64,000 nt of DNA from Brachyspira pilosicoli (lineage in GTDB: Bacteria > Spirochaetota > Brachyspiria > Brachyspirales > Brachyspiraceae), in the NCBI RefSeq assembly GCF_008016535.1, contig NZ_SAXY01000055.1:1-64000 (forward strand), in the 5' to 3' direction. This document shows, in pieces, positions 58,545-59,445 of the stretch (position 1 is the first letter of the stretch; every line of letters starts with the position of its first letter). A program made the position numbers and the translations under genes. The notes beneath the pieces are model-generated. The model searched no databases, was not told the DNA's origin, and saw only the letters and a program-made list of their open reading frames with translations.

Positions 58545-58775
58545 AATATCTCCTAATATATCATAACCTAATATTTAAAAATATTTTCGTTTAATAATAT
58601 AATTAAATGCCTCGTTTTGCAAGTAAAAGTATGATAGTTTTTTAATAAGAATTAATAATTAATAATAATTTTTAAAATAATAATTTTAGAAAAATAATTC
58701 AAAATATTTTGTAAAAAGTTATTTTTGTTATATAATATTTATACGTAATAGTAATAAAAGAATCAAGGATTTTAT

Positions 58776-59381
58776 ATGATATTAGACAATGGAATTAACA
58801 CATTAACACCTTCAGAATTTGAAAAAAAAATGGAAGAATTAGATGATTTTATAATTTTGGATGTAAGAACAGAATTAGAGCATAATTATGAGGGAATGAT
58901 AGAAAATTCTTTGTTAATAGATTTTTTAAGACCTAGAGTATTTAAAAGAGAAATAGAAAAACTTGATAAAAATATTACTTATTTGATTTATTGCTCTGTT
59001 GGCAAAATAAGTGTTGATGCTGCTTCATATATGAAAAGTGTAGGGTTTGATAATCTATATATTCTTGAAGGCGGACTTAAGGCTTGGAATAAATATTTAG
59101 GTGATGATAGTAAAGTTTCTAAATTTGGAAGAGAAGAAATTGTAGAAAAAAGAAAAAAACTTATAATCAGATTAAACAGAATAGAAGGACAAATAAACGG
59201 AATGAAAAAAATGCTCATTAAAGGAGAATATTGCGGAGATATACTTAATCAGGCTTTGGCTGTTAAAGCTGCTATGGCTAGTGTTAATCAAGAGATTATG
59301 GAAGTGTTTTTAAATACTTGTATGATTTCACCGAAAGAAAAAGAAGACTTTTTTAGATACATGAAAAAATTAATAAAGTAA
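58776..59381 (+). CDS. Rhodanese domain fused to a CstR/CsoR-type repressor
   Basis: A 201-residue fusion. Residues 1-108 are a rhodanese sulfurtransferase domain with LDVRTELEH and active Cys73 in IYCSVGKISVDA. Residues 125-201 are a DUF156 all-helical repressor (LIIRLNRIEGQINGMKKMLIKGEYC) with Cys153 and Cys182. The CsoR copper His, four residues before the second Cys, is replaced by Phe178. That pattern fits persulfide-sensing CstR rather than copper-sensing CsoR. A TATAAT box lies upstream. No sulfide-oxidation genes are adjacent. Confidence 0.9.
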   Translation: MILDNGINTLTPSEFEKKMEELDDFIILDVRTELEHNYEGMIENSLLIDFLRPRVFKREIEKLDKNITYLIYCSVGKISVDAASYMKSVGFDNLYILEGGLKAWNKYLGDDSKVSKFGREEIVEKRKKLIIRLNRIEGQINGMKKMLIKGEYCGDILNQALAVKAAMASVNQEIMEVFLNTCMISPKEKEDFFRYMKKLIK

Positions 59382-59405
59382 ATTTTTAAATAAACTTTTT
59401 ATTAT

Positions 59406-59445
59406 AAAAAACCCTTCTGATATTTTTAATCAGTAGGGCTTTTTA
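59406..59445 (+). terminator. Terminator after the rhodanese-CstR gene
   Basis: ACCCTTCTGAT and ATCAGTAGGGC form an inverted repeat with one T-T mismatch around ATTTTTA, followed by TTTTTATTTTTT. It lies about 29 bp after the stop. Confidence 0.85.

Follow-up and report, generated by a model that had tools for sequence, protein, structure and literature searches.

How a persulfide sensor obtains its sulfur inside the cell, and what keeps it selective, are to our knowledge unsettled questions. A locus of Brachyspira pilosicoli brings them into a single protein. The window analysed here, a stretch of 64,000 nt, carries on its plus strand (58776–59381) an open reading frame of 201 aa that encodes a rhodanese–CsoR fusion regulator, an assignment based on Pfam, on 22 intact orthologues and on the signature of purifying selection. 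We consider it likely that the fusion is a CstR-like persulfide-responsive repressor with a sulfurtransferase domain of its own, predicted to act on a palindrome around the −10 box. Such a natural sulfurtransferase–sensor fusion makes sulfur acquisition testable in one polypeptide, by comparing mutants of C73 with mutants of C153 and C182. It also yields a proposed persulfide-response system, with operator and target set, for the gut spirochaetes Brachyspira; the literature searched contained no Brachyspira paper that mentions rhodanese.

The N-terminal part of the protein (aa 11–106; 58806–59093, plus strand) is a rhodanese (sulfurtransferase) domain by Pfam (PF00581, E = 3.7e-14; 53.4 bits against a cut-off of 22.2) and by Foldseek. 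Its predicted catalytic cysteine, C73, opens the six-residue active-site loop CSVGKI (58992–59009, plus strand), which reads C-S-V/I-G-K-I/L across the 22 orthologues, C73, S74, G76 and K77 being invariant. The C-terminal part (aa 126–197; 59151–59366, plus strand) is a DNA-binding and sensing domain of the CsoR/RcnR family (DUF156; PF02583, Trns_repr_metal, E = 3e-20; 72.8 bits against a curated cut-off of 22.8), in agreement with its predicted helices and strong conservation. Here Cys153 (59232–59234, plus strand) aligns with the first conserved cysteine of CsoR-family proteins, and Cys182 (59319–59321, plus strand) follows 29 residues later. Phe178 (59307–59309, plus strand) occupies the position of the copper-ligand histidine, aligning with the copper-site His of the Geobacillus CsoR 4m1p, the nearest solved relative of the fusion by sequence. 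The preliminary description had placed a rhodanese and a CstR-type repressor in one chain, which the two Pfam domains and the 22 intact orthologues bear out; its numbering of Cys73, Cys153, Phe178 and Cys182 was correct, and all four residues are invariant in the 22 Brachyspira orthologues.

Given only the orthologues, AlphaFold2 produced too weak a model (pLDDT 65). With a mixed alignment, from which one plasmid protein row was left out, the mean pLDDT was 80, and the model shows a rhodanese fold and, behind it, three helices (residues 120–148, 154–182 and 186–200); these predicted helices correspond to the three of a CsoR subunit. In a Foldseek search this model matched solved rhodaneses best, among them the rhodanese domains of the CoADR-RHD 3icr and of the Enterococcus faecalis CoA-persulfide reductase (CoAPR) 8a56; every match listed was a rhodanese, and none was a CsoR structure. 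In the hairpin topology of CsoR proteins, the start of helix 1 should be near the end of helix 2. By analogy, the point at which the rhodanese is attached (the start of helix 1) should be near Cys182 (the end of helix 2).

All 22 intact Brachyspira orthologues, the window's included, are exactly 201 aa long and share the same architecture; the fusion is therefore not an assembly join. Invariant positions make up 70 of the 78 alignment columns in the CsoR half and 56 of 110 in the rhodanese half, which evolves faster. The dN/dS is about 0.04–0.19, and among the four close relatives compared the CsoR half shows no nonsynonymous change at a dS of 0.3–0.5; the window's gene differs there from its three close relatives by 12–15 synonymous changes. 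The fusion gene is under purifying selection. It is present in 23 of the 26 Brachyspira genomes compared and missing from three (G034, G009 and G147); in each of the 23 the fusion is the single CsoR-family gene, and the three fusion-less genomes have none. In the draft genome of B. pilosicoli T010 (L016:405–1006/L039), the gene lacks one A of an A run close to the domain junction, and the resulting frameshift, which may be genuine or a sequencing error, separates the two halves; in the other pilosicoli-group genomes the fusion is intact.

Other spirochaetes had been suggested as places to look for the fusion, and among 393 spirochaete genomes we found none outside Brachyspira, nor was a hidden CsoR domain present in the spirochaete rhodanese-match loci checked. 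None of 72,556 plasmid records covers both domains, and no record of the viral contigs does so. A match on an Ilyobacter plasmid was rejected as a separate rhodanese, and matches on plasmids of Roseburia, Ruminococcus and Fusobacteria were rejected as separate CsoRs near metal P-type ATPases. Within the spirochaete genomes, plasmid records and viral contigs searched, the rhodanese–CsoR fusion is a CstR-like variant found only in Brachyspira.

In the window, the neighbours of the fusion gene are the divergent alaS and a recX-like gene. A consensus scan placed its promoter, TTGTAA-16 nt-TATAAT, at 58709–58736 (plus strand), where it is aligned and conserved upstream of the pilosicoli-group and several other orthologues. 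The ribosome-binding site AAGGA (58765–58769, plus strand), read from the sequence, lies 6 nt before the ATG and is kept in all aligned orthologues. The gene is followed by an intrinsic terminator hairpin (59405–59445, plus strand; −13.5 kcal/mol, z = −4.1) with a T run behind it, which a simple consensus scan had missed, and it appears to be monocistronic.

In nearly all Brachyspira genomes outside the pilosicoli group, the fusion is directly preceded, at a distance of 80–190 nt, by the gene of a 562-aa FAD-dependent reductase that carries a rhodanese at its C-terminus, referred to here as CoAPR. Its best solved relative is the Bacillus anthracis CoADR-RHD (PDB 3icr, 5e-144); it also matches the E. 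faecalis CoA-persulfide reductase (8a56, 2e-129) and, below that model's cut-off, the NCBIfam model for CoA-disulfide reductase (7e-131). In the pilosicoli group, CoAPR and the fusion gene are far apart. All 22 fusion-bearing genomes besides the window's (G000) contain CoAPR, and the three fusion-less ones do not; G000 itself has no full CoAPR, only a remnant.

CoAPR promoters diverge apart from two elements, the −35 box (TTGACT) and a palindrome with the −10 hexamer inside it; the palindrome is TATACATATACTAGGTATATA, with TATACCTATACTATGTACATA as its pilosicoli-group form. Around the −10 box the palindrome reads TATACM-TATANT-AKGTATA, i.e. TATAC[C/A]-TATANT-A[T/G]GTATA. A first pattern, built from the CoAPR sites alone and scanned over the 26 genomes, led to two more promoter families, those of a 106-aa rhodanese and of a 92–93-aa Thioredoxin_3 protein; at the latter the palindrome likewise surrounds the −10, about 55 nt before the gene. 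The consensus over 19 distinct site sequences is TATAC(C/A)TATANTA(T/G)GTATATA. Counts were made with a refined pattern: at 0–1 mismatches, 34 of the 37 sites in the 26 genomes lie at three loci, with 11 at CoAPR, 10 at the small rhodanese and 13 at the thioredoxin-fold locus; these orthologous sites are not independent, and their support amounts to three promoter families. One of the remaining three (L158, in G136) precedes the thioredoxin-fold gene too, and the neighbouring permease was not found there. Sites at exactly two mismatches were mostly outside the three loci and about as numerous as expected by chance (73 elsewhere, against 78 matches to a reversed-pattern control at up to two mismatches). 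The three fusion-less genomes hold no site at 0–1 mismatches; they also lack CoAPR, so that presence and absence do not cleanly separate the operator (or the regulator) from the target. From these sequence comparisons, the palindrome is most likely the DNA site of the fusion, and the most likely candidate targets are CoAPR, the small rhodanese and the thioredoxin-fold gene.

Binding of the fusion to its own promoter, named as a check in the preliminary description, found no counterpart in the scan: the 250 nt upstream of the gene hold no operator-like site in any orthologue, the best candidates having 5–7 mismatches, as in shuffled sequence. Autoregulation is therefore not predicted. The pattern scan returned no operator site within the window, and a loose scan of the window's genome with ATACCn6-7GGTAT was discarded, its count not being above the control and most of the inspected sites lying inside open reading frames. 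The gene of a Gly/Tyr-rich Metal_resist (Spy-like) protein was considered as a fourth target and rejected, since G065 and G123 alone have a close site upstream of it, G000 has a looser one and the other genomes show no conservation. The palindromes concerned are at L105:1501–1521, L210 (−357) and L196:1501–1517.

We infer that the fusion binds the palindrome, that it responds by persulfide chemistry and that its rhodanese relays sulfur to the sensor. With its cysteines reduced, the protein would bind the palindrome arms that flank the −10 at the CoAPR, small rhodanese and thioredoxin-fold promoters, and would block RNA polymerase. When persulfides or polysulfides build up, a sulfur bridge would join Cys153 of one subunit to Cys182 of its neighbour; the bridged repressor would lose DNA affinity, and the persulfide-clearing genes would be expressed. 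The N-terminal rhodanese would probably load sulfane sulfur on Cys73 and deliver it to the sensor cysteines, or might alternatively keep the sensor tuned to a particular donor.

The intramolecular relay, by which Cys73 would take sulfane sulfur from CoA-persulfide or another donor and hand it to a sensor cysteine, is put forward tentatively. If it is true, the signal would be delivered enzymatically and not by direct reaction with small-molecule persulfides. A persulfide-sensing repressor could also carry a rhodanese that acts as a resetting enzyme, stripping sulfur from the sensor, or one that is simply a member of the regulon that has become fused. We take this possibility seriously without favouring it: in E. 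faecalis these functions are divided among separate CstR-controlled genes (PMC9405070), and the faster evolution of the rhodanese half would fit, but the active-site loop is strictly kept. Moreover, the protein is always 201 aa long and, bar the one draft frameshift, no separate CsoR exists, which suggests that the physical link matters.

A repressor of the proposed kind need not be the protein that reads the palindrome. The pairing of the two is a prediction from sequence and an XRE-family regulator adjoins some CoAPR genes, so the site may belong to another regulator and the fusion act elsewhere. However, L013, L014 and the pilosicoli group have kept the palindrome without an XRE gene next to CoAPR, and the arms are of CsoR type, the fusion being the sole CsoR protein in fusion-bearing genomes. 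Specifically, ATACM...KGTAT resembles ATACCn6GGTAT, the site of CsoR-family proteins of Streptomyces coelicolor, Geobacillus and Mycobacterium tuberculosis (PMC7533328), although the spacer is 7 nt here instead of 6 and long G/C runs are absent. A different owner of the palindrome is thus unlikely. Absence of such runs is not foreign to the family, as TTHA1953 of Thermus thermophilus, a CsoR-family sulfur regulator, binds without them (PMC10318464).

As to the signal, stand-alone CsoRs of other spirochaetes have the Cys-His-Cys copper site in 20 of 20 proteins inspected, and Cys-Phe-Cys occurs only in the fusion, where Phe178 stands at the His position in all 22 orthologues. S. aureus CstR, too, is not known to carry the copper His. 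The fusion shares with CstR proteins the two cysteines at the sensor positions and the missing copper histidine (C153, F178 and C182 invariant), whereas a CstR is a stand-alone repressor of about 85–100 aa and all intact orthologues here are fused to a rhodanese; we therefore call the protein CstR-like, and not a CstR. Its predicted operators at CoAPR, the small rhodanese and the thioredoxin-fold gene agree with control of sulfur-handling genes. Operators at copper exporter or chaperone genes, which would mark a copper-sensing CsoR, were not seen, the 26-genome scan having assigned no 0–1-mismatch site to a copper gene. Because of the Cys-Phe-Cys arrangement, the 29-residue spacing and a predicted target set near that of E. 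faecalis CstR, persulfide is much more likely than copper as the signal. The earlier preference for persulfide over Cu(I) is supported by these data, and the sulfur interpretation of the fusion is well supported.

It is improbable that the protein nevertheless senses copper (or another metal) as a CsoR and that its rhodanese is incidental. It is of the CsoR family, its two cysteines are also those of the copper site and its nearest solved relative by sequence is a Geobacillus CsoR, but every orthologue has Phe in place of the third copper ligand, the predicted targets are sulfur and thiol genes, and the Metal_resist gene has a close site in just two related genomes. Improbable, too, is that the conservation reflects the promoter only, an unusual −10 context with no operator, for although the centre TATANT is a −10 hexamer at the right distance from a −35, the symmetric arms TATACM and KGTATA fall outside the sigma-70 hexamer and the 0–1-mismatch arms are almost all confined to three sulfur/thiol loci instead of being spread over many promoters.

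Among known systems, the cst-like system of E. faecalis (CstR, RhdA, RhdB and CoAPR) is a better known comparator than staphylococcal CstA. There, CstR regulates RhdA, RhdB and CoAPR, in a cst-like operon (PMC9405070). The Brachyspira protein resembles this CstR in its family, its two sensor cysteines, its CoAPR and rhodanese targets (predicted here) and its host, a gut bacterium; in E. faecalis, however, regulator and rhodaneses are separate proteins, whereas Brachyspira has one rhodanese joined to the regulator, dispersed candidate targets and, among these, an additional thioredoxin-fold gene. S. aureus CstR likewise has two cysteines 29 residues apart (C31 and C60; PMC9774590) and controls sulfur genes, as predicted for the fusion, but in the CstR/CstA/CstB system the regulator lies in the operon that it controls, its targets are the other cst genes and there is no fusion. 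ScCsoR of S. coelicolor is a CsoR-family sulfane-sulfur sensor, as proposed here, and represses a rhodanese gene; in contrast to what is predicted for the fusion, its main target is a persulfide dioxygenase and not CoAPR and it binds its own promoter, and it is not fused (PMC7533328). TTHA1953 is a CsoR-family repressor of sulfur genes whose targets are dispersed and whose operator has no G/C runs, features predicted for the fusion as well, but its operator is TACNNTACNNNNGTANNGTA, its targets are Sox genes and it is not fused (PMC10318464). Copper CsoRs (Geobacillus 4m1p and the stand-alone CsoRs of other Spirochaetota) share the fold family and both cysteines; unlike the fusion, they have the copper His and no rhodanese.

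CoAPR is deleted in the window's genome. At G000:C38:53141–53260 (L088:1501–1620) a remnant persists with an intact promoter, the exact operator, a ribosome site and the first 14 codons, after which an unrelated short tail leads to a stop codon (MKKILIVGGVAGGAKVIEY). In the relative G132, an intact CoAPR and two further genes lie between the corresponding point and an RNB-domain gene; in G000 the RNB-domain gene follows directly. At the threshold used, G000 gave no match to the small rhodanese that carries the operator. In the pilosicoli group, the closest small rhodanese (L125–L127) has about 45–47% identity to the operator-bearing one, and no operator was seen upstream of it in the sequences inspected. 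G000 keeps the thioredoxin-fold gene together with a putative site (TATACCTGTATGATGTATATA, 2 mismatches); this gene is the one candidate target found in the window's genome, and its retention with the site may explain the continued purifying selection on the regulator. The ArsP-like permease that adjoins the thioredoxin-fold target appears to be part of an arsenic-type cluster (L167:3875–6714 in G009, L166 and L163), whose members are an ArsR-like regulator, an ACR3-like transporter, the permease and the Thioredoxin_3 protein; in G009 the cluster also contains a short rhodanese open reading frame.
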